Below are positions 359-10,211 of a stretch of 10,211 nucleotides of DNA, piece after piece (the first letter of the stretch is position 1; the number at the start of each line of letters is the position of its first letter). The stretch comes from Planctomycetota bacterium (GTDB taxonomy: Bacteria; Planctomycetota; Phycisphaerae; WQYP01), in the NCBI GenBank assembly GCA_021809365.1, contig JAKBAC010000124.1:1-10211 (forward strand), read 5' to 3'. The notes below the pieces were generated by a model. That model ran no database searches and was not told the origin of the DNA. It was given only the letters and a program-made list of their open reading frames with translations. Both the position numbers and the translations under genes were made by a program.

Positions 359-1609
359 ATGAAATTTTTTATCAAGATGGGTGCCTCGGTTTTATTGGCG
401 GCGGCGACCCTGCCCGGTGCCATGGCGGCCGCCGGGCCAGCCACGCTGGTCGTGCATGAATGGGGCACTTTTACATCTTGCGAAGAGGCCAATGGGCACG
501 CCCTTGGCGGCATCAACACGGATGATGAGCCGGTGCCTCCCTTTGTACATGACCTCGTGCCGGGGTTGATCAATGCACTGGGCAAGGGAATTCCTGCCGG
601 GAAGCCCAGCGTGACCATGCGCCTGGAAACGCCCGTGTTGTATTTTTACCCGTCGCCCGGCGCTCCCAAACAACTGGTCAACGTGTTGGTGCGGTTTCGC
701 GGGGGCTGGCTGTCGCAGTATTATCCAGATGCCGTCGCTGTCGCGCCGGGCGTTTCGGTTGGCAAGAATGGGGTAGTGCACATCGGGCCGTTGACCGCAT
801 CCACCGTCGGCTCCCTGCGATGGACAGGCGTTCGCGTCGGTGTTGCACCTGGCGGGCCGAAAACCCTTGACAATGTGTGGACTGCACCGCGGAAGGTTAA
901 AGCCGCCTACGTAGAAGCCGGGGATGGCGAGGTTGAACGGTTTCTGTTTTATCGCGGTGTGGGGCACGTCCGGGCACCGCTGCGTGTGGTGCGCCATGGC
1001 AGCGAACTGGCGATTCACATGCAACGTCTGGCTCCGGGCGAGCCGGCGGTCACCACCGTCGACCAGATATGGCTCACCGAATTCCGTTCGGATGGACGTT
1101 GCGCATTTACCACGCTTGAGAATGTGCATGCCTCCGCACGAACCGGCGTTTTCGCCATCATGCGGGATAATTTTTCAAAAGCCGACTTTTCTCGAGCTAA
1201 ATTAGCAGCGCTTAAACGCAGCATGCATCACCGGCTGGTGTCCGAGGGATTATTTTCCGATGAAGCCACAGCCATGCTAAATACATGGCAGCAGTCTTAC
1301 TTTAAAAGCGGCGGGGAGCGGCTGTTTTTTATCGTGCCGCCGGCATGGACGAATTATTACCTGCCGCTGCGGATTTCATCACACCCGGCCGTAACGCGGG
1401 TAATGATGGGTCGCATTGAGCTTGTTACCCCTCGCCAGAGCGCCGCATTAAAGAACCTTTTTTCAACGAGATGGAATCAGCTCCACATGAAAAAGGCGAT
1501 AGGAGACTACCGGTCGCTGGGCAGATTTGCCTACGCGCTGATAGCCTGGGAACAACGGCGCGTGCATCACGGTATCATGGTTGACGCTCCCGCCCCGTCG
1601 GCAAAATAA
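359..1609 (+). CDS. Exported protein of unknown function, HEWGTF-motif family
   Basis: Encodes 416 residues. The ATG at 359 is supported by GGAGG at 346-350, eight bases upstream. Residues 1-23 form a clear Sec signal peptide: Lys-rich start, hydrophobic core (ASVLLAAATLPG) and an Ala-Met-Ala cleavage site. The mature protein is therefore probably periplasmic or beyond. Soon after comes VVHEWGTFTS (about residues 31-40), followed by a Pro-Pro-Phe-Val-His segment. Near residues 320-356 are 'RLFFIVPPAW' and 'MMGRIEL'. I associate these landmarks at the two ends with a family of uncharacterised secreted proteins common in planctomycetes and acidobacteria; this is from memory, not from a search. 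Between them lie beta-rich stretches. I see no catalytic motif or membrane anchor beyond the signal peptide. The gene stands alone on the plus strand and converges on the minus-strand operon that follows. Confidence 0.9.
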   Translation: MKFFIKMGASVLLAAATLPGAMAAAGPATLVVHEWGTFTSCEEANGHALGGINTDDEPVPPFVHDLVPGLINALGKGIPAGKPSVTMRLETPVLYFYPSPGAPKQLVNVLVRFRGGWLSQYYPDAVAVAPGVSVGKNGVVHIGPLTASTVGSLRWTGVRVGVAPGGPKTLDNVWTAPRKVKAAYVEAGDGEVERFLFYRGVGHVRAPLRVVRHGSELAIHMQRLAPGEPAVTTVDQIWLTEFRSDGRCAFTTLENVHASARTGVFAIMRDNFSKADFSRAKLAALKRSMHHRLVSEGLFSDEATAMLNTWQQSYFKSGGERLFFIVPPAWTNYYLPLRISSHPAVTRVMMGRIELVTPRQSAALKNLFSTRWNQLHMKKAIGDYRSLGRFAYALIAWEQRRVHHGIMVDAPAPSAK

Positions 1610-1685: not shown

Positions 1686-1817
1686 TCATGGGAGCAACAG
1701 GTCACGCCGGCGCATCGCGGCGATTACTCGGACAGGCTCCTGGATAATTCCCAACCGAGGTGCCGCGAAATCGTCTTCCACGGCCTGTTTCGGCAACTTC
1801 CGCACCAGGTTTGACAT
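1686..1817 (-). CDS. Possible 43-residue protein coupled to the ATPase gene
   Basis: The ATPase stop codon overlaps an ATG as TAATG (1819-1815), and the new frame runs 43 sense codons to a TGA at 1688-1686. One-base overlaps of this kind are typical of translationally coupled genes in an operon. The peptide starts MSNLVRKLPKQAVEDDF and ends in an arginine-rich, leucine-rich tail (MRRRDLLLP). Roughly two thirds of its third codon positions are G or C, in line with the surrounding genes. No signal peptide, clear membrane segment or known motif is visible, and it resembles no family I recognise. It may be a small accessory protein of the type VII-like cluster or a chance frame. It is the last gene before the convergent gap. 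Confidence 0.4.
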   Translation of the reverse strand: MSNLVRKLPKQAVEDDFAAPRLGIIQEPVRVIAAMRRRDLLLP

Positions 1818-4800
1818 TATTTTTCCCGTTGATGGCTTTGAATCCATACCGCCCCGGGCAGGGCATAAGGACGGAATTTTTCCATGACGCCCTGTTCCTC
1901 ACTGCAGGATAACGCCCGGTAGAAGCCGAGATTATTGGCGGCGGGCGAATCGATTAAACTGCTGGAATCGGCGGCACTCATTTGAAAGAGTACGCGGTTA
2001 TCAAATTCCCGCTGCGCCGATCGTTCAAACGTGCGTTCCAGGGACGCTAACGTATCAACCCAAGTTAATATATGGATTCCAACCGCCGGGCCGTCACGCA
2101 GAATTTCGCCGAATTCCTTGCCGGGGTTGGGGGCTTTGGCCTCATCGCCTGACGACATGGAGAAGCTGAAGTCGTCTTCGCTTTTCCGCAACATGCGATA
2201 CCGCTGCAAAGCGTAGATACAAATAAATATCTCCGGGGCATTGGGTGACTCTTCAGCCAGCCGACGGTGAACTTCCTGATTGACCGCGTGGATGGTATCT
2301 CCAATGCTTCGCCATTCGACTATTTGCACGTCCGGCCCCAGTGCGGGCTGGAGTCGTTCAAATGTTCCGGCCAGGCGGGAATCTGCCGCCAGCCCATCCA
2401 TGATATAAAATTTTGCCCCACCAGAGGGGTACTGTGCCGTCAGAGAAATTAACGACCAGACCATCAGCGACAGGGCTTGTTCCTCCTGCTGCCCGACCAG
2501 CAGAACATTGGAGCCGCTTTGCCGCCGCAGGGTCAAAAGCGTAGGCTCTTTAATGGCGACAGGCTCGCCAATCCAGGCCCGGGCCGAGGTTGGAATATCG
2601 GTGGGTCTGCCGCCGGCCAGCAGAGCAGTCAGTTGCTTATTCATCTGCGCATCCGCTGGAGCGTTGCCTTCAAAAATGACCGGTGGCTCGTGGTTGATGG
2701 CAGCGGCCTTAGCCCGAACACCGATTCGATCCAGATAAATTTCCCGCTTTTCATCGGGCAGCCATGCCACCTGAAAGGGGCTGTTGGCCTCCACCAGGCC
2801 GCCGGCATCGTTATAAATGGCGGCGCCCGGGCGGGAAAGCAGACGCGCCGCCGAGTTATTATCTCCAAGGATAATCTGCGAATCGGCTTCACTGACCTGC
2901 AAGGCAATACGCACTGCCATTTGGCCAATGGTGCTGCGGGCCAATCCGGAAGTACCGCCAATTGTCTGTGATCCCAGCAGCAGATGAATGCCAAAGGCTC
3001 GGCCTTGCCGCACCAGGCGATCCATCAATAAGCCGGCCTGTTGCGCCAGTTTGTCATCTTCGGAAAAAAATTCCTGGAATTCATCAATCACCAGCAGCGT
3101 CCGGGGCAGGTTTTGTGCTCCGGAACTGCGGCGATAAGAAGGCAGGTCCTGCACGCCGGCTTTGCGGAATAATTCGCCCCGGCGGCCCAATTCCACGTCC
3201 AGGCGTTCCAGAACGCTTAACCCAAACTCGCGATCACTTTCCACGGCAATCGCCCGCGCATGAGGCAGGTAATGCGTGGCATAGGTTTTAAATTCCACGC
3301 CCTTTTTGAAGTCAATCAGATAAAGCTCAATTTGGTCCGGTGAATACCACATGGCCAGATTTGTCACAATCGCATGCAGCAGGGTGGATTTGCCGGAACC
3401 AGTCTTTCCGGCCAGCAGCCCATGCTGCGCCATGGCCCGGCCCAGGCGCAACATCTGCAGCCGCGTGGCACCCATGCGGCCGATCGGGACAGCCAGGCCG
3501 TCGGCACTGTCGAGCGTCCAGAATTCCTCATCAGCCGGCGCGATGGTATCAAAGGAGACTTCTACATTCTGACTGGCTTTGGCAGCCAAACCGATTTTAT
3601 CCAATAAGGGTGTAAGCACATCCTCGCCGGGCGGCTGATCCAGTGACAAGGGAAACTGGCCCAGCACCTCATCCTTCCAACCGAAGGCTTCCCCCTTCTG
3701 CATAACATTGACGCAATGCGCGGCAATATCCTCCAGCTGCGCTGCGGAGGTTGCGGGAAGTTGCATATCACCGGCTGCCAGCAGATATACACCGCAACGC
3801 GCGCCGGTCGCGGCAATACTGGCCAGCCGGCGCAGGGTATCCCGCTCAAAACCAGTTGGAAAATCAGCAATCACGACAAACCGGTATGGCTCGGCCAGTT
3901 CACCGGCCTGCGCGTTGTAATCATCAATGGTGGCAAATTCGTTCCGCAGGTATTTTTGAATGACCGTTTCCATGTGTTCCGTGAGATCTGACAGTCGCTG
4001 TTCAATTTGCTCCGGCCGCGTCCAGATGCGTCCGCCCACCAGCGCCTCATCATGATCCGCCAGGCGCATGAACCCCGCAAAATTCTGCCCCAGTCCCACA
4101 GGATCAATGATAGTAAATCTGGCCCGGCCCGGCGGCAATTGCGTAAGAATGCTGATCATCACGGATTGCAGCATCCGCAGCGCTGCGGGCCGCCCGGTAC
4201 GATCGTAGCGCACCAGCATGGAGGCGCCAAAGGGAAATTCCAGCATCGCCGGCGCGGTAAACGCTTGCGGGAATTCCAGCTTTACCGCATCACCTTTAAC
4301 ACCGGCAGCCACGGCCTTTTTGAGGTCCACCACAAACTCACCGAAGCGGATGACTTTCGGAAACAGGTTGGACGGCGTCCAGTTTTCCCAGGACTGCGGG
4401 GCGGGCGGGTTACCATTCTCTACCTTAGACGCATGTCCATTTGTGTGTTCATCAGGCGAGGCCGTCTGCGTGTGCGCCAACCCGCTTTTCAACCGGTTTT
4501 TCAAATCCACCATGGACTGATCATAGCGCCGCCGATTTTCCGCCAGAGAGTCATCGTATCGACGTTGAGCCGCGAGAACATCGGCATCATGCTGCTGCTG
4601 CAGGGCCTGATTTTGAGAATCGCTCTGCTCTTGGGCGGCCCCGACAGCGGCGGCGCGGTGCGCTTCACTATCAGCTTTGCTCTTATCGAACTGCTGTTGT
4701 GATTCCTGATGCTGCCCGGCGCGGCGGCCCTCAATGGTTTGTGCAGCTCCGACGGCCTTTTGTTTCAGGTCCTGCAACTCGCGTAACGCTCTGTTGCGCG

Positions 4801-5773
4801 TGTCGGCAAAGTAGGCCTCATGCCGCTGGGCTACCAGTTCCGCGTGTTCCTTGGCCGCCTGTCTCGCTGCAGCAATGGCGGCATTCAGCGGTTGATTGAT
4901 CGCCAGCAAGTTGGCTTTAGCCCACGAGCGCAGCACGAGTCCCAGAATAACCGCACCCACCAAGGCCCCCCCCACCGCCATGGCAATCACGTTGACCTGC
5001 ACCGGGGCCGAACCGGACAGGCCGTAAGCCACTCCCGCAGATGCTGCACACAGCAATACCAGAAAGATCCATGGCGTAACGCCGTAAACCAGCCGTGGCA
5101 GCAACAATCCGCGCAGGGCGGCCAATTCTCTCCGGGCTGATTCCAATTGCGTGACCATCGCGGCCCGCAGGTCCTGACCGGCAAGTGCCGCAGCGCCCGG
5201 CGTTTCCGCTGGCGGCGGCGGGCGACGGAAACAGCGGGCCATCAAAGCCGCTGCGGATTGCGCTACTTCTGACAGAGCCTGTTCATGCTCCTGGAACACT
5301 TTGCTTAGCTCTTCATCTTCCGCACGGATCTGATTGCGTGCTGTTTCAACTTCTCCTTCGGCCAGCCATTTAGCTTCTTCGATCTGATTGCGGACTTTTC
5401 GCTGGGCCTCGGTATGTTCCCATTTCATGCCCGCTTGCGCCTGATTATATTCTTCCGCACACTGGACCAGACGCTCCTGATAATCGGCGGCAATTTTCTC
5501 CAGGGTGCGTTCACGTTGCGCAGCGAGTTTTTCAACCTCTGTTGAATATTGGCTCTCGATTTGCGTCAGTGTGTTGTTGAGATCTTTTTTGGCCTGATCA
5601 TTGGCGCCGCGAAATTGCCGCAAAAATTGCCCTTCCTGCGTGGCACACTGGACAGCCAGAGCCAGCAGATCGCGCAAAATGGTTCTCTGCGTGTCCCGCT
5701 GAGGACATGGGGCACCATGCTTTTGCGGCAAGGAGGAAACGGGTGGATCAGACTGCGGATGTAACTGGGTCAT
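1817..5773 (-). CDS. FtsK/SpoIIIE-type ATPase, EssC/EccC-like, with coiled coils and membrane pair
   Basis: Encodes 1318 residues. Order of parts: a long Gln/Glu/Ala-rich coiled coil (about 25-175); two membrane segments (about 230-252 and 260-281); a second coiled coil (about 285-430); then three ATPase-like domains. The first (about 490-690) has RecA-like strands such as FTIIDPVGLG and YRFVVIADF but no Walker A. The second carries the Walker A GKTGSGKST at 789-797 (Lys795), the Walker B LLVIDEF with Asp897-Glu898, and a later LLLGSQT strand. The third (from about 1060) has VGQQEEQAL at about 1093-1101, where the Lys-Ser/Thr of Walker A is lost. In type VII secretion the EssC/EccC ATPase is a membrane-bound protein with tandem FtsK domains that powers export of WXG100 proteins. 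The adjacent WXG-like genes favour that role over DNA translocation. The ATG at 5773 follows GTGAGG about 11 bases upstream. The direction of transport and the substrate are unknown. Confidence 0.9.
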   Translation of the reverse strand: MTQLHPQSDPPVSSLPQKHGAPCPQRDTQRTILRDLLALAVQCATQEGQFLRQFRGANDQAKKDLNNTLTQIESQYSTEVEKLAAQRERTLEKIAADYQERLVQCAEEYNQAQAGMKWEHTEAQRKVRNQIEEAKWLAEGEVETARNQIRAEDEELSKVFQEHEQALSEVAQSAAALMARCFRRPPPPAETPGAAALAGQDLRAAMVTQLESARRELAALRGLLLPRLVYGVTPWIFLVLLCAASAGVAYGLSGSAPVQVNVIAMAVGGALVGAVILGLVLRSWAKANLLAINQPLNAAIAAARQAAKEHAELVAQRHEAYFADTRNRALRELQDLKQKAVGAAQTIEGRRAGQHQESQQQFDKSKADSEAHRAAAVGAAQEQSDSQNQALQQQHDADVLAAQRRYDDSLAENRRRYDQSMVDLKNRLKSGLAHTQTASPDEHTNGHASKVENGNPPAPQSWENWTPSNLFPKVIRFGEFVVDLKKAVAAGVKGDAVKLEFPQAFTAPAMLEFPFGASMLVRYDRTGRPAALRMLQSVMISILTQLPPGRARFTIIDPVGLGQNFAGFMRLADHDEALVGGRIWTRPEQIEQRLSDLTEHMETVIQKYLRNEFATIDDYNAQAGELAEPYRFVVIADFPTGFERDTLRRLASIAATGARCGVYLLAAGDMQLPATSAAQLEDIAAHCVNVMQKGEAFGWKDEVLGQFPLSLDQPPGEDVLTPLLDKIGLAAKASQNVEVSFDTIAPADEEFWTLDSADGLAVPIGRMGATRLQMLRLGRAMAQHGLLAGKTGSGKSTLLHAIVTNLAMWYSPDQIELYLIDFKKGVEFKTYATHYLPHARAIAVESDREFGLSVLERLDVELGRRGELFRKAGVQDLPSYRRSSGAQNLPRTLLVIDEFQEFFSEDDKLAQQAGLLMDRLVRQGRAFGIHLLLGSQTIGGTSGLARSTIGQMAVRIALQVSEADSQIILGDNNSAARLLSRPGAAIYNDAGGLVEANSPFQVAWLPDEKREIYLDRIGVRAKAAAINHEPPVIFEGNAPADAQMNKQLTALLAGGRPTDIPTSARAWIGEPVAIKEPTLLTLRRQSGSNVLLVGQQEEQALSLMVWSLISLTAQYPSGGAKFYIMDGLAADSRLAGTFERLQPALGPDVQIVEWRSIGDTIHAVNQEVHRRLAEESPNAPEIFICIYALQRYRMLRKSEDDFSFSMSSGDEAKAPNPGKEFGEILRDGPAVGIHILTWVDTLASLERTFERSAQREFDNRVLFQMSAADSSSLIDSPAANNLGFYRALSCSEEQGVMEKFRPYALPGAVWIQSHQREK

Positions 5774-5797
5774 GGGTATTAAAGCCTCACCACGAAT

Positions 5798-6010
5798 TTA
5801 CTGACAATCGCGACGCACCTGTGTAAGCACCATGGCGATATGCTCCATGGCGTTAGCGGCCGCGTGGAGGTCGGTAGCCAGCGGTTCAAGAAATTTCTTT
5901 TCAAAACGGGCGCTGGCCTCATCATTCCAGCCGAATTTCACTTCCTCCCAGCTTAGCTGCAGGTGATTCAGTGCCTTGCCCAGTTGCCCGCGTCCTTCAT
6001 AAACGCCCAT
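5798..6010 (-). CDS. 70-residue WXG-like protein
   Basis: This small helical protein starts MGVYEGRGQLGKALNHL and carries two tryptophans. The second begins Trp28-Asn29-Asp30, followed by Phe36 and Phe40. That matches the turn region of a WXG100 helical hairpin, except that Asp replaces Gly. The length is shorter than the usual 90-100 residues of WXG100 proteins. The frame stays open upstream of the ATG at 6010, but no in-frame start codon lies closer to the preceding gene, and the GRG-rich start fits what I remember of planctomycete relatives. It ends 24 bases before the ATPase start, so co-translation is likely. No C-terminal YxxxD/E export signal is present. It could be a partner or substrate of the ATPase, or a heterodimer partner of the other WXG-like protein. 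Confidence 0.8.
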   Translation of the reverse strand: MGVYEGRGQLGKALNHLQLSWEEVKFGWNDEASARFEKKFLEPLATDLHAAANAMEHIAMVLTQVRRDCQ

Positions 6011-6069
6011 AAAATAGCCCGCCTTGTACTTGCACCATTTTTCAACTTCGCAGCGACAGGCTGGTACGT

Positions 6070-7098
6070 TTACTTTCGCTGCGTGCCGACATCCCGCCCC
6101 TGGGGGTCTTTAATCTCTGCGGTTCCCTGAGCATTCAATATAACCGAAAAGCCCACCGGGAGTTTCAGAATTTTAAGCCACTCCGGAGTTACTTGTTCAA
6201 TCTCGGCCAGTGTAATCGACCGCCATGGGCCGGGGGCTTTATCCAGCGGAGCAAGGCTCCAGCCCGTGTCATCAGGTGATAGCGGCTGGCTGTGCACCAG
6301 CATCAGCATGCGCGATTCGTTATTCGTTGATGGCGCGAAAGTTACTTTCGCCTCCCCATTTAACGTTCCGCCATCATGGATAAGCGCGTCAAGGGCGTTC
6401 CGCTGCGGATCAGTTAATTTCGGTGTGGAAAAGGGCCAATCTTTTTGCGGCAATGCCGTGCGACGCTCGTCGGGGCTGGGAAGTACCGGTTCATTTTCAG
6501 CGCGCTTAGCGGCCTGATCTTCCGGCCCTTGCGCTCCGCGGGACATCACCGCGCCATCCGTTGCAGGGACAGCCGTAAACTGCCCGGCGTTTTCAGAACT
6601 CACACTGCCGGGGCTTGCAATTGCGGCGTATGCCTGCAATTCGGCGACCAGCCGTTCCAGATGGGCTACGCCCGCGGGCACCAGCGATTCCACGCTGGTG
6701 GCAAGGCGCTGCAGAGAACCTTTATAGAGTTCCACTTCCTTTTGTAACGCCCGCGTCCAGCGCCGCACATTGGCCAACTTCTGTTCGGCCTCGGTCAATC
6801 GGATCACGGCGCGTTGTAATTCTTTTTGCTCCTCAATGGCGGATAGCGGCCTTCCGGAATGATCCTTAAAAAGTTTCTTCATACGAACCGCCTCTTTGGC
6901 CCGTTCAACGGCGGTTTGGCGTTTGCGTGTTTGATCTTTCCAGAAGCTTTCCTGTTCAATTTCCAGCCAGAGCATGGTGCGGCGAAGCTCGGAATCCGCA
7001 TCTTCCAGGGCGGCATTGGCCGTGGCCTGAAACTTCCACAGCACCGCCTGAAAGCCGGTCAGCAAATCCACAGATTCAACGCGAGCGCTCTCGGCCAT
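6070..7098 (-). CDS. Coiled-coil protein of the type VII-like cluster, unknown function
   Basis: Encodes 342 residues. Residues 10-160 are strongly helical and charged, with heptad-like Leu/Ala spacing and conserved-looking Trp residues (Trp44, Trp53, Trp114). Residues 161-220 form a low-complexity Pro/Ser/Glu linker. Residues 225-340 look like a separate mixed globular domain (for example KVTFAPS, MLMLVHS, FSVILNAQG). There is no signal peptide or membrane segment, so it is probably cytoplasmic. The start is well supported: AGGA at 7108-7105 lies six bases before the ATG and overlaps the stop codon of the preceding WXG-like gene. Its place between two WXG-like genes and upstream of the ATPase suggests a structural or chaperone role in the same machine. 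I recall similar coiled-coil proteins next to WXG100 and FtsK genes in planctomycetes, but not a named family. Confidence 0.85.
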   Translation of the reverse strand: MAESARVESVDLLTGFQAVLWKFQATANAALEDADSELRRTMLWLEIEQESFWKDQTRKRQTAVERAKEAVRMKKLFKDHSGRPLSAIEEQKELQRAVIRLTEAEQKLANVRRWTRALQKEVELYKGSLQRLATSVESLVPAGVAHLERLVAELQAYAAIASPGSVSSENAGQFTAVPATDGAVMSRGAQGPEDQAAKRAENEPVLPSPDERRTALPQKDWPFSTPKLTDPQRNALDALIHDGGTLNGEAKVTFAPSTNNESRMLMLVHSQPLSPDDTGWSLAPLDKAPGPWRSITLAEIEQVTPEWLKILKLPVGFSVILNAQGTAEIKDPQGRDVGTQRK

Positions 7099-7106
7099 AT
7101 TCTGTC

Positions 7107-7379
7107 CTATCGCTCGTTAAGATATTTTTCTATATGCTGAGCTTTTTTCATCAGAACCTTGGCATGTTCGGTGGAGGACTCCATGAAGCGTCCAAGAAAC
7201 TGGGCCGCCTGATCAAAGGTTTCAGCAAATTTCTGCTGCTCCTGATCGCGCCAGCTTGATTCCAGAGACCGCAGGCGGGAATTTAATCCCGACATCAGCC
7301 CTTCCAGATCATTATTAAACTGCATCAGCCCCTGCGCAAACCGCCGCAACTCCGCCGGATCAACACTCGCTTTGGCCAT
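7107..7379 (-). CDS. WXG100-like protein, first gene of the type VII-like cluster
   Basis: Encodes 90 residues from the ATG at 7379. An ATG at 7388 is in frame, but the ribosome binding site GGAG (7392-7389) abuts it and lies nine bases before the 7379 start, which also gives the natural beginning MAKASVDPAELRRF. The protein is all-helical. The centre reads SSWRDQEQQKF (Trp43-Arg44-Asp45, then Phe51 and Phe55), which fits the helix-turn-helix of WXG100 proteins with Asp in place of the motif Gly. The C-terminus ends IEKYLNER, close to but not matching the YxxxD/E export signal. WXG100 proteins are small secreted or partner proteins of type VII systems, usually dimers. The next gene begins eight bases after its stop, so the two are probably co-translated. 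Confidence 0.87.
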   Translation of the reverse strand: MAKASVDPAELRRFAQGLMQFNNDLEGLMSGLNSRLRSLESSWRDQEQQKFAETFDQAAQFLGRFMESSTEHAKVLMKKAQHIEKYLNER

Positions 7380-7388
7380 AGGATTCAT

Positions 7389-7426: not shown

Positions 7427-7761
7427 TTACCATTGAAGCCAGCCGACACCAAGGAGTTTATTCGCTAATTGCCATTTGGCCCGTGCGGTCCATCCCTGAT
7501 GGGTTTTATGTCGGTGACGGTCACGGAACAACTCACGGAAACCTGCCAATACCCCGCAATTAGCGGCGTAAACGTCAGTGTCGCACTCGACGATGTTGAC
7601 GGCTGCGTCGGGCTTATGGAACCAGTATAACTGCCCGATGGCGCGGAGCCAAAGGTGTCGGCCTGTAGGGCCTTGTACTGCACATTGGCAACTGGCCAAT
7701 CATATTGCGCGGAAAGGTCGCCCTCCGACACGCCCGCGTGTGGAAAATACTCGTGCCGTCG
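7427..7761 (-). pseudogene. Frameshifted 3' fragment duplicated from the large secreted protein gene
   Basis: The stretch translates to QYKALQADTFGSAPSGSYTG and onward through TPLIAGYW and SVSCSVTVTD, almost matching the protein encoded at the right end of the window (there QYKALQADSFG, TPLIAGYW, SVSCSVTVTD). At about 7505-7510 one base is missing relative to the longer gene, shifting the frame. In the unshifted frame translation stops at 7465. In the shifted frame the likeness continues as KTHQGWTARA against KTNQYWGGRA and then fades before a stop at 7427. Upstream the frame is open to the TGA of the neighbouring exported-protein gene at 7762, in the same reading frame. The best start would be a GTG at 7731 without a clear ribosome binding site. 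It is most likely a decayed partial paralogue. A short expressed protein cannot be excluded. Confidence 0.7.
7511..7682 (-). repeat. Left copy of a 172-base duplicated segment
   Basis: This segment aligns without gaps to 10040-10211. By hand I count about 19 mismatches in 172 bases, or about 89 percent identity. Most differences fall at third codon positions or between similar codons, so the two copies probably evolved under protein-level constraint for a time. Weaker likeness extends left to about 7478 with one gap. The right limit of the match is hidden because the other copy runs off the window. Confidence 0.9.
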
Positions 7762-8925
7762 TCAGCGCGATAGAACGGTTATTTTTCTCCATGGTGACCA
7801 CGTATGCGTATTCGCCAATTCCACCCGGACGCGGTAAACCCCCGGAAGGCTCATGTCGTATTGGCAACTCAAGTTGATTGGCTCGGCGTACTTGTACGCC
7901 ATATCAGGTCTAAGCGCGTATTCGCGCTGTTTGAGGTGCCCCGGCGGATGCTTCGTAATCCACCGCCCGTAGGCGGTTCTGCGCGGGGCCGCTACCTGCG
8001 TGACAACCTCGTGTGGCTTGGGTGTTCCGACCCGCGCCACGCGGTCTAGGGAAGTAGGCCCCTGGACCTGGATTGCCCGGAAATCGAGAAAAGGATTGCC
8101 AGTGAGCCGCTCTATCGCCGGGTTGCGGCCTTTGTGAACAAACAGTGCGCGGACAACGATTGGCCCCGGCCCCTTGACAGTCGGCCCCACTAATTCGACA
8201 TGCAGCCCGGGCGTCATTACGGGAGCAAATTTCGCCACTGAGCCATGTGTCAGCATTAAGGCCGCGGACCGTAGCCTGTGGTATGGGGCGTCCACTGCCA
8301 CTGAAATGAAGTTGCTCATAATCGGCTTCCACCTGCGCGCCCTCGGGGCGAGCGTACGCGCTTCCCATGGTGCCGGGAGGTAAAAGTGCTGTCCGATCGA
8401 AACGGCGTGGCCGTTTTGCCAAACCTTCTTTCGGACCAAATAGAGCCCCTGCCGCGTAGCAATCGCCAGTCGATACTTTCCGGGCCTTGTCATGTCGTAA
8501 TAGCTTGCGGGCGAATAGCCCCGAAGCCAAGCCACGCTGTTACCGGCCGGGACGACCGGGGTTGACTCCAACGTCTTGCTGCCCGGCAATAGCGACACAA
8601 CATTGTGTCGGCCGTTGGCGTTGTGGAGAACACGCCCACCGGGTCCTCCTGAGGCATCAGATAACCGTACATAAAATCGGGCAAGCGCAACGTGTCCGAA
8701 GCCAAGCGCGTCCAATTGCAGCGGCAAGGGTGAGCGGTTGATAAGCTGCAGCCGGGTCCATAGCACCGAACCGGAAACGCAACTCCGGGCGCACGCCAAG
8801 TGCATGCGCACCACAGGTCTCTTCGGCTGGCCTGCGTGTGCCCGGGCCAGACAGAGCCATGCCGGCAAGATCGCTAATAAAATCGCCATCACCCGCCACC
8901 GAAAAACGGAACTTAAACACATCAT
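7762..8925 (-). CDS. Exported protein of unknown function with two 'YDM..PG.Y' domains
   Basis: Encodes 387 residues from the ATG at 8925. A longer frame from a TTG at 8946 would contain the ribosome binding site AAGGAG (8936-8931), so it is rejected. A second ATG follows at 8922. Residues 1-31 are a Sec signal peptide (basic start, core VMAILLAILPAWL, Ala-His-Ala cleavage site). The mature part seems to be two related beta-rich domains, each ending in a similar motif: SYYDMTRPGKYRLAI at about 141-155 and CQYDMSLPGVYRVRV at about 354-368. Such motifs occur in Ig-like domains resembling the BsuPI fold, which is an analogy and not a demonstrated match. No catalytic residues are recognisable. 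It begins 42 bases after the stop of the larger secreted protein gene, suggesting one operon. Cys45 and Cys49 lie close together near the mature N-terminus and may form a disulfide. Confidence 0.85.
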   Translation of the reverse strand: MMCLSSVFRWRVMAILLAILPAWLCLARAHAGQPKRPVVRMHLACARSCVSGSVLWTRLQLINRSPLPLQLDALGFGHVALARFYVRLSDASGGPGGRVLHNANGRHNVVSLLPGSKTLESTPVVPAGNSVAWLRGYSPASYYDMTRPGKYRLAIATRQGLYLVRKKVWQNGHAVSIGQHFYLPAPWEARTLAPRARRWKPIMSNFISVAVDAPYHRLRSAALMLTHGSVAKFAPVMTPGLHVELVGPTVKGPGPIVVRALFVHKGRNPAIERLTGNPFLDFRAIQVQGPTSLDRVARVGTPKPHEVVTQVAAPRRTAYGRWITKHPPGHLKQREYALRPDMAYKYAEPINLSCQYDMSLPGVYRVRVELANTHTWSPWRKITVLSR

Positions 8926-8930
8926 TCTTA

Positions 8931-8936
8931 CTCCTT
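8931..8936 (-). promoter_or_regulatory. Ribosome binding site of the 387-residue exported protein
   Basis: AAGGAG lies five bases before the ATG at 8925 and eight before the ATG at 8922. It fixes the start near the signal peptide and excludes the upstream TTG at 8946. Confidence 0.75.
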
Positions 8937-8967
8937 GAGTCTTCAAAAATAAGGCCTATGGAATTGC

Positions 8968-10211
8968 CTATTTTGGTGGCAAGCCTTCGCTGCCGTTCGT
9001 GTAAACTGTTGTCCACACCGGATACACGTCTATCGGGCTGGCGGGGGCGTTGCCGGCTGTCGCAGGGGTTGCTCCCGCAAACGACCAGGATTGTTCGGCC
9101 GCGCTGTAGGTTGCGGTACCGCCCCAACTCCAAGGGGAATTGGCCAAAGGCACGTCGATGGAACCGGAAGCAGCCGGGCGGTACATGACCCACATCGTGG
9201 GATTGTCGTTGACCGTGACCGGCGAGTAATTGACGCTACCCGCGAGGCCGTCCGTCGGAACTTGGGGGCCATCCACGGTGCTGTCGACGCCAGCGGATTG
9301 GTTGTTGCCGCTATAGGGGTCGCCGTTGTCTAAGGCCGTTTCCGCAAATGACCAGTCCTGAACCCCATTCAGGCCCGTGTATGCGTGATCGAACTGGTAG
9401 ACCTGTACAAAATAGGTGTGTCCCTTGAAGGTGGTGCTGTTGACGGCCGGGTGCTTGAATAAAATTCCCGCTTGGGAATCGGACGTGAAGCTTGGCTGCG
9501 ACACTGCGCCGGTCTGCTGTAGGTATAACACTCCGTCAGGGCCGCCGGAAATGGGATCTGTCATTACGCGCGTCGGGTACTGATAATCCGCCGTGAGCGT
9601 GGTGGTCGGCCCCGCAACATTGAAGGTCGTATGCACCGGCGGGACACTAAAACCGTTTTTCGTCGTCACGCCCGCTTCGAGGCTATCGGTTTTCGTGTAA
9701 TAATAGGGGCCGAACGCATTTCCGGGATCGTTATCCGCATTTAGCGTCGCAACGGAGGCGCTGGTTGCGGTCGCGGTATACCCCGAAATTGCCGCGGCAC
9801 CATTTCCCCCCGCCCCGGAGATGGTCCAAGCGAACATGCTGGCAAGGTCGGAGGGTTCCCAAATTACGCCAAGATTAATCGGCCAGCCAGCGTGAACATC
9901 TTGGAATTCGTTAGTCACCACCGTGCCGTTGTCGGAGCCGCCGACCAACGGCCCAGTGTAGGTGATGTCCAGTGTATAGCTGGTCAAATCTTCCGGCCCG
10001 GCGTTGGCCCTGCCGCCCCAATACTGGTTGGTTTTGGTATCGGTGACGGTCACGGAACAACTCACTGAAACTGCCCAGTACCCTGCGATCAGCGGGGTAA
10101 ACGTCAGCGTCGCGTTCGACGATGTCGAAGGCTGCGTCGGGCTTATGGAATCAGTATAACTGCCCGACGGCGCGGAGCCAAAGGAGTCGGCCTGCAGGGC
10201 CTTGTATTGCA
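8968..10211 (-). CDS. Large secreted beta-rich protein, C-terminal part (5' end outside window)
   Basis: The frame is open from the right edge to a TAG at 8970-8968, giving 413 visible residues; the true start lies beyond the window. An internal GTG at 10065 is not the start, because coding likeness to the duplicated fragment continues upstream to the edge. Composition is rich in Thr, Ser, Gly, Asn and aromatic residues with very few Lys, Cys or charged runs, typical of extracellular beta-sandwich proteins. Visible landmarks include TLTFTPLIAGYW and SVSCSVTVTD (an Ig-like strand pattern), DVHAGWPINLGVIW, FKGHTYFVQVYQF, and near the end MWVMYRPAASGSIDVPL followed by SPWSWGGTA. I recall the latter motif from uncharacterised planctomycete secreted proteins. 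There is no C-terminal membrane anchor or sorting motif. Likely roles are cell-surface or extracellular structure, but no function can be claimed. Confidence 0.85.
   Translation of the reverse strand, partial: QYKALQADSFGSAPSGSYTDSISPTQPSTSSNATLTFTPLIAGYWAVSVSCSVTVTDTKTNQYWGGRANAGPEDLTSYTLDITYTGPLVGGSDNGTVVTNEFQDVHAGWPINLGVIWEPSDLASMFAWTISGAGGNGAAAISGYTATATSASVATLNADNDPGNAFGPYYYTKTDSLEAGVTTKNGFSVPPVHTTFNVAGPTTTLTADYQYPTRVMTDPISGGPDGVLYLQQTGAVSQPSFTSDSQAGILFKHPAVNSTTFKGHTYFVQVYQFDHAYTGLNGVQDWSFAETALDNGDPYSGNNQSAGVDSTVDGPQVPTDGLAGSVNYSPVTVNDNPTMWVMYRPAASGSIDVPLANSPWSWGGTATYSAAEQSWSFAGATPATAGNAPASPIDVYPVWTTVYTNGSEGLPPK
10040..10211 (-). repeat. Right copy of a 172-base duplicated segment
   Basis: This is the counterpart of 7511-7682, lying inside the intact frame of the large secreted protein. 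The match reaches the very end of the window, so the duplication is probably longer than what can be seen here. Confidence 0.9.

Follow-up and report, generated by a model that had tools for sequence, protein, structure and literature searches.

A Candidate Minimal Type VII Secretion-like Gene Cassette in Planctomycetota and Verrucomicrobiota

Organization of the Cassette

Most work on type VII secretion concerns Gram-positive bacteria and mycobacteria, whose machines have more membrane subunits than are encoded by the gene cassette described here. This cassette lies in a Planctomycetota genome (assembly GCA_021809365.1, contig JAKBAC010000124.1; G000 in our numbering), within a stretch of 10,211 nucleotides (C194:1137-11347, minus strand of a record of 11,385 bases) that we call the window. 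An initial annotation of the window had described a compact type VII secretion-like operon, and the packing of four consecutive genes on one strand, the minus strand, was confirmed. The first gene, wxg (7107..7379), encodes a WXG100-family protein of 90 residues counted from the conserved family start, an ATG at 7379 located 9 bases inside an open reading frame (ORF) that opens at 7388. It is followed by cc (6070..7098; 342 residues), coding for a coiled-coil protein, by sm (5798..6010; 70 residues), coding for a small WXG100-like hairpin protein, and by the gene of an EssC/EccC-like ATPase of 1318 residues (1817..5773). The gaps between the successive genes are 8, 59, and 24 bases, and the GC content of the cassette (56.6%) is close to that of its two flanks (56.4 and 58.6%).

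The initial annotation had also counted two stop-start couplings and allowed for a fifth, coupled protein of 43 residues, whose ORF (1686..1817, minus strand) overlaps the stop codon of the ATPase gene (TAATG). The window has the TAATG start, which the close relatives L005, L010, and L014 lack, and a longer frame beginning inside the ATPase gene gives 53 residues in the window versus 13, 16, and 44 residues in those three loci, with unrelated ends. Because neither the start nor the frame is conserved, this ORF was dropped as a gene and judged to lie outside the cassette. The single stop-start coupling that was found belongs to it. On the other hand, the annotated absence from the window of further type VII membrane proteins stood, since none of the EccB, EssB, EsaA, EssA, and EccD/E families was among the Pfam or NCBIfam matches of the nine window ORFs scanned.

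The ATPase Resembles EccC and EssC

The ATPase comprises an N-terminal coiled coil, a hydrophobic hairpin at about residues 228-282, a second coiled coil, and three FtsK/HerA domains, the coiled coils having been judged on composition alone. The window ATPase has two hydrophobic segments in this hairpin region, and two such segments were present in 82 of the 90 usable rows of ATPases from the Planctomycetes-Verrucomicrobia-Chlamydiae (PVC) group; from this hydrophobicity alone, the ATPase is predicted to be membrane-bound. The Walker A motif (GKTGSGKST) and the IDEFQ motif are confined to the middle domain (D2). In the ATPase alignment a GK[ST] signature was found in 0/102 rows for D1 and likewise 0/102 for D3, and the D2 Walker A was present in 99/102 rows, the remaining three being gaps.

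The window ATPase matched PF01580 with 109 bits and the NCBIfam EccCa model with 127 bits, far under the equivalog cut-off of 509, and it is therefore a distant relative. When the ATPase profile was compared with solved structures, the scores were 151 bits for Thermomonospora curvata EccC, 122 for EccC5, 117 for YukB, and 51 for FtsK, and the top Foldseek match was again EccC (E 2e-33). These matches, together with the two hydrophobic segments, bore out the annotation of a membrane-anchored FtsK/EssC-like ATPase. The FtsK of this genome is encoded by a separate gene (C180, scoring 428 bits with the FtsK model), and neither that model nor the FtsK gamma domain of Pfam and NCBIfam matched the window ATPase at E <= 1. 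Some distant members of the ATPase family matched the FtsK model weakly (37 and 29 bits), and several database entries of close relatives bear FtsK/SpoIIIE names.

The Small Proteins and the Coiled-coil Protein

Of the two small proteins annotated as WXG-like, the product of wxg fully deserved the label, with a PF06013 score of 40 bits for a cut-off of 27.3. Residues Trp-46, Asp-48, Tyr-89, and Leu-90 were invariant in its alignment (61/61 rows), so that a W-x-D motif replaces W-x-G throughout the family and the C-terminal Y-L pair is strictly conserved. Among solved structures, the nearest to the wxg profile was Helicobacter pylori HP0062 (54 bits), followed by Bacillus anthracis EsxB and Staphylococcus aureus EsxA, all three being named here as database matches only. 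The C-terminal YxxxD/E motif is the type VII export signal; it was found in none of the 61 wxg rows when the last 25 residues were inspected in this family.

The case of sm was weaker. Taken alone, it had no Pfam match at E <= 1 and a sub-threshold score of 16.2 bits to TIGR03930 (cut-off 44.85). At the family level, Trp-28 and Asp-30 of a W-x-D motif were present in 69/69 rows including the query, the sm profile found S. aureus EsxA (E 0.0025), PF06013 was touched by 4 of 52 members at E 0.1, and a profile-profile comparison with the wxg family gave E 1.5e-4 with a probability of 51%. These data suggest that sm is at best a divergent WXG100 member, and a sequence likeness to WXG100 hairpins was found for both small proteins, weak in the case of sm. 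A cysteine at position 69, close to the C terminus of sm, was present in 61 of the 69 rows.

The coiled-coil annotation of cc was substantiated by an AlphaFold model (mean predicted local distance difference test score 86.9), which consists of a predicted two-helix hairpin at residues 11-161, with helices of 66 and 74 residues, a low-confidence linker, and an Imm33-like C-terminal domain at about residues 209-342. Residues 245-328 matched PF24719 with 24 bits, below the cut-off of 27, and at E 0.1 this family matched 53/71 rows of a cc alignment weighted toward relatives of the window. The tail beyond the hairpin was shorter than 60 residues in 47 of 69 rows, 60-149 residues long in 5, and at least 150 in 17. 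In this lineage, cc either bears an Imm33-like domain or has almost no tail, and no nuclease was recognized in it.

Gene Order and Co-occurrence across Genomes

A scan of genome contigs yielded 371 ATPase relatives, the best 80 of which were kept as loci (labeled Planctomycetota and Verrucomicrobiota, plus one Lentisphaerae, one Alphaproteobacteria, and two without phylum), and our own profiles of all four genes were mapped onto them. The order test was restricted to the 55 loci in which the sequence upstream of the ATPase ORF exceeds 2.5 kb. The trio of wxg, cc, and sm was located upstream of the ATPase gene in 48 of them and none of the trio in the other 7, indicating that the gene order is conserved among relatives. 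Of the 80 loci, no more than 5 shared any one neighboring family, save for an ORF seen at 19 loci; in 19/19 this ORF runs antisense to the cassette and overlaps wxg. The locus labeled Alphaproteobacteria (L075) carries a cassette resembling those of the PVC records, and its label is possibly a binning error.

The distribution of the ATPase and of WXG100 proteins was then compared in 149 Planctomycetota genomes and in 145 genomes of the phylum to which locus L061 belongs (Verrucomicrobiota). Among the Planctomycetota, 19 genomes encoded the long ATPase, with scores of at least 540 bits, and the rest did not exceed 58 bits. WXG100 matches were found in 20 genomes, i.e. all 19 ATPase carriers (15 of them over the cut-off) and G028, whose match of 21.5 bits, under the cut-off and in a frame of 624 residues, was the sole one among the 130 non-carriers. 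The 19 carriers span 8 families, and the presence or absence of the two proteins was concordant within families: both were encoded by 4/6 members of f30, 4/8 of f15, and 1/2 of f59, and the remaining members had neither. The co-occurrence had a Fisher P of 4e-23, calculated without correction for kinship. In agreement with this result, 4 of the 145 Verrucomicrobiota genomes encoded the long ATPase (at least 656 bits), and WXG100 matches over the cut-off were observed in the same 4; the ATPase score was 138 bits in G221 and did not exceed 78 bits in the remaining genomes of this set. Each of 23 carrier genomes examined, including 7 without the trio beside the ATPase, contained exactly one WXG100 match.

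Three further genomes gave isolated signals. G221 has a WXG match of 21 bits, under the cut-off, some 2 kb from the 138-bit ATPase relative (C12:14579-17792), a pair that is possibly another subtype; G304 had a 22-bit WXG match without a long ATPase; and G137, outside the 23 genomes examined above, had a second WXG100 match, which was sub-threshold.

The Four Genes Are Kept When Unlinked

We checked the presence of cc and sm in 20 genomes chosen for broken linkage or distant membership. Each gene was found in 19/20 genomes, G107 matching neither profile. In the 7 genomes without the trio beside the ATPase, the trio was on a different contig, with cc and sm found in all 7; its members were adjacent in 6 of them, and in G168, with a partial sm match, they were split over two contigs. 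Some cc matches ran across stop codons in the six-frame reading and may be neighboring frames or broken genes. In G105, a single contig, the ATPase (about 234,308, matched in two pieces), wxg (about 710,899), sm (about 1,936,065), and cc (about 2,663,544) occupy four separate sites, and in G024, also a single contig, cc and sm are adjacent with the ATPase and wxg far off. The four genes are thus retained though scattered, which suggests that they share a function and counts against a mobile element in this family.

The neighborhood of some ATPase genes is also shared. A topA-like gene, named from sequence, adjoins the ATPase in L055, L067, L070, L074, and L080, the trio not being at that place, and a helicase-like gene adjoins it in L055, L070, and L074 as well as in L058.

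Relationship to Known Systems

Gene sets of this kind are already known, since four papers, in the parts concerned, describe kindred sets. Table 1, footnote 6, of PMC3482391 (2012) lists, for planctomycetes and verrucomicrobia, solo WXG domains together with a YueA-like ATPase whose middle domain alone is active, and terms such systems "mobile versions of T7SS" (type VII secretion system). The phyla and the three-domain ATPase with an active middle domain agree with the cassette; unlike it, the systems of the footnote are called mobile, and neither a coiled-coil protein nor a second small protein is named there. The relevant passages of PMC11090510 describe, beside CoCoNuT/TerY-P systems, a three-domain ATPase with only D2 predicted to be active, a pair of WXG100 proteins, and a coiled-coil nuclease, and its authors consider that the WXG100 proteins implicate such ATPases in protein secretion. 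According to these passages, the operons beside Type III-A CoCoNuT/TerY-P systems share with the cassette an ATPase with an N-terminal coiled coil and D2 alone active, two WXG100-type proteins, and one coiled-coil protein. They differ in that their coiled-coil protein forms a fusion with a D-ExK nuclease and their ATPase has no transmembrane helices, whereas the PVC cassette has the hydrophobic hairpin, no recognized nuclease, no recurrent CoCoNuT or TerY-P genes next to it, and W-x-D in both small proteins. In H. pylori, the WXG and FtsK genes (HP0062/HP0066) are termed a minimal type VII set in PMC4978471, and PMC3397514 reports, in the part concerned, that HP0062 has a WRD motif and clusters with an FtsK/SpoIIIE-domain protein; HP0062, the nearest solved structure to the wxg family, thus likewise carries W-x-D.

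Distant cassettes were recognized in four plasmid records, whose WXG proteins were scored against our wxg profile. That of Caballeronia (VWA, WXG with 81.5 bits, 436 residues, 113 residues, 76 residues, ATPase, CARF, VWA, PP2C, kinase) has, from its WXG gene to its ATPase gene, an order similar to that of the PVC cassette. That of Helicobacter sp. NHP19-012 (WXG with 59.5 bits, coiled coil plus WHH nuclease (PF14414), SUKH, 77 residues, ATPase) contains nuclease and SUKH genes unrecognized in the PVC cassette, and its ATPase is shorter (823 residues). The other two belong to Rhodococcus (ATPase, 314 residues, 73 residues, WXG with 43.9 bits) and Deinococcus (ATPase, WXG with 34.7 bits, 94 residues, 326 residues, 144 residues). 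The sm profile matched neither the 76-residue Caballeronia nor the 77-residue Helicobacter protein; it did match the 144-residue Deinococcus protein (23.5 bits) and the Caballeronia WXG protein (25.5 bits). The cc profile, in a set of 21 proteins, failed to match the coiled-coil proteins of Helicobacter and Caballeronia and matched weakly those of Rhodococcus (21.8 bits) and Deinococcus (16.6 bits). Because these profile matches fail or are weak, the plasmid genes are equated on the basis of their position, their size, and their coiled-coil character. The alignment placed Walker A in the middle domain alone for the Helicobacter, Caballeronia, and Rhodococcus ATPases, and the Deinococcus middle domain has a slightly altered P-loop (AMTGAGKS). 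On the Deinococcus plasmid (L151), the ATPase has no strongly hydrophobic segment in its N-terminal part and is preceded by a 142-residue protein with a C-terminal hydrophobic tail (6363-6791), perhaps a split-off anchor.

The EssC/EccC-type ATPase and WXG100 proteins are common to the cassette and to both T7SSb (Ess/Yuk) and T7SSa (ESX). The D1 domain of EssC also carries Walker motifs, according to the passage of PMC11090510 that treats it, and that of the cassette ATPase does not. With Bacillus subtilis matching as positive control, EssB (PF10140) and LXG toxins (PF04740) were found in 0/23 carrier genomes and EsaB/YukD (PF08817) in 3/23, none being the genome of the window; EccB (PF05108) was found in 0/23 in a search without any positive-control match. 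In the text available of PMC11217815, T7SSa-j are assigned to Gram-positive phyla and the string "Planctomycet" is absent. Within the literature consulted, this analysis adds the PVC four-gene unit, the hydrophobic hairpin, the absence of any recognized toxin or immunity gene, and the joint retention of the genes.

Proposed Function and Alternative Explanations

Taken together, these results indicate that the gene set is very likely related to type VII systems. The middle ATPase domain taken alone, however, resembles FtsK at least as much as EssC. In PVC bacteria, the cassette probably represents a minimal type VII secretion-like machine, and protein export is, on balance, the function that its sequences favor. 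It would be a stand-alone, membrane-anchored set without recognized toxin or immunity gene. The initial suggestion that the machine is type VII-like, reduced or distinct, thus fits, once the fifth gene and the couplings are removed from it, and ideas of the same kind predate it. None of the three findings that would have spoken against it was made: the ATPase as a whole matches EccC/EssC and is distinct from the FtsK of the genome, both small proteins resemble WXG100 hairpins in sequence, sm weakly, and relatives keep the gene order.

In the mechanism that we propose, the ATPase would form an inner-membrane ring anchored by the hydrophobic hairpin, and sm, wxg, and cc would join in one complex. 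The flanking ATPase domains, devoid of a P-loop, might dock the small proteins, and ATP hydrolysis in the middle domain would drive the complex, or a partner that it carries, across the inner membrane. The ancestor of the cc protein may well have been an export substrate that carried a toxin, because cc occupies the place of the nuclease toxin in the Helicobacter plasmid cassette, a correspondence of position between sequences that do not match. A tentative and rather doubtful extension is that the four genes encode a complete type VII-type exporter of double-membrane bacteria, without separate channel or accessory membrane subunits, which arose from a toxin-delivery cassette and turned into a resident function, with the toxin and immunity gene lost, one WXG100 protein per genome, and the genes kept though scattered. 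Such a co-retained PVC set would point to the smallest workable type VII gene complement, make the handling of a Gram-negative-type envelope testable outside pathogens, and tie a supposed mobile weapon to an apparent resident function.

Instead of exporting proteins, the cassette might act as an intracellular conflict or defense module, in which the ATPase works on DNA or as a signaling platform and wxg and cc are regulators, as is maybe the case beside CoCoNuT/TerY-P. We consider this unlikely: no CoCoNuT/TerY-P neighbor recurred among the 80 loci, the genomes themselves not having been searched for CoCoNuT genes, the PVC ATPases have the hydrophobic hairpin, and the authors of PMC11090510, in the passage cited above, link such ATPases to secretion. 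Still less probable is a mobile, self-serving version of type VII secretion, as the footnote of PMC3482391 suggests. The patchy distribution within families f30, f15, and f59 and the location of distant relatives on plasmids would agree with it, but searches of viral contigs with two peptide patterns found no relative, no plasmid record covered 80% of the ATPase, and the cassette does not differ appreciably from its flanks in GC content. Moreover, the scatter of the genes over four sites in G105 and the topA-like gene shared by five loci fit retention and vertical descent. Finally, an ordinary chromosomal FtsK translocase with unrelated small neighbors, as the FtsK/SpoIIIE names of relatives would imply, is refuted on sequence grounds by the separate FtsK gene, the lack of an FtsK-model match, and the co-occurrence with WXG100 proteins, and we give it hardly any credence.

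Other Features of the Window

Upstream of the cassette, the fragment at 7465-7731 is a partial copy of the gene at 8968-10209 (87% over 188 bases) and perhaps represents a duplicated or broken surface-protein gene. The long ORFs at 359-1609 (plus strand) and 7762-8946 (minus strand) have no Pfam match and begin with signal peptide-like stretches, as judged by eye; among the loci compared, they lie beside the cassette solely in the genome of the window.
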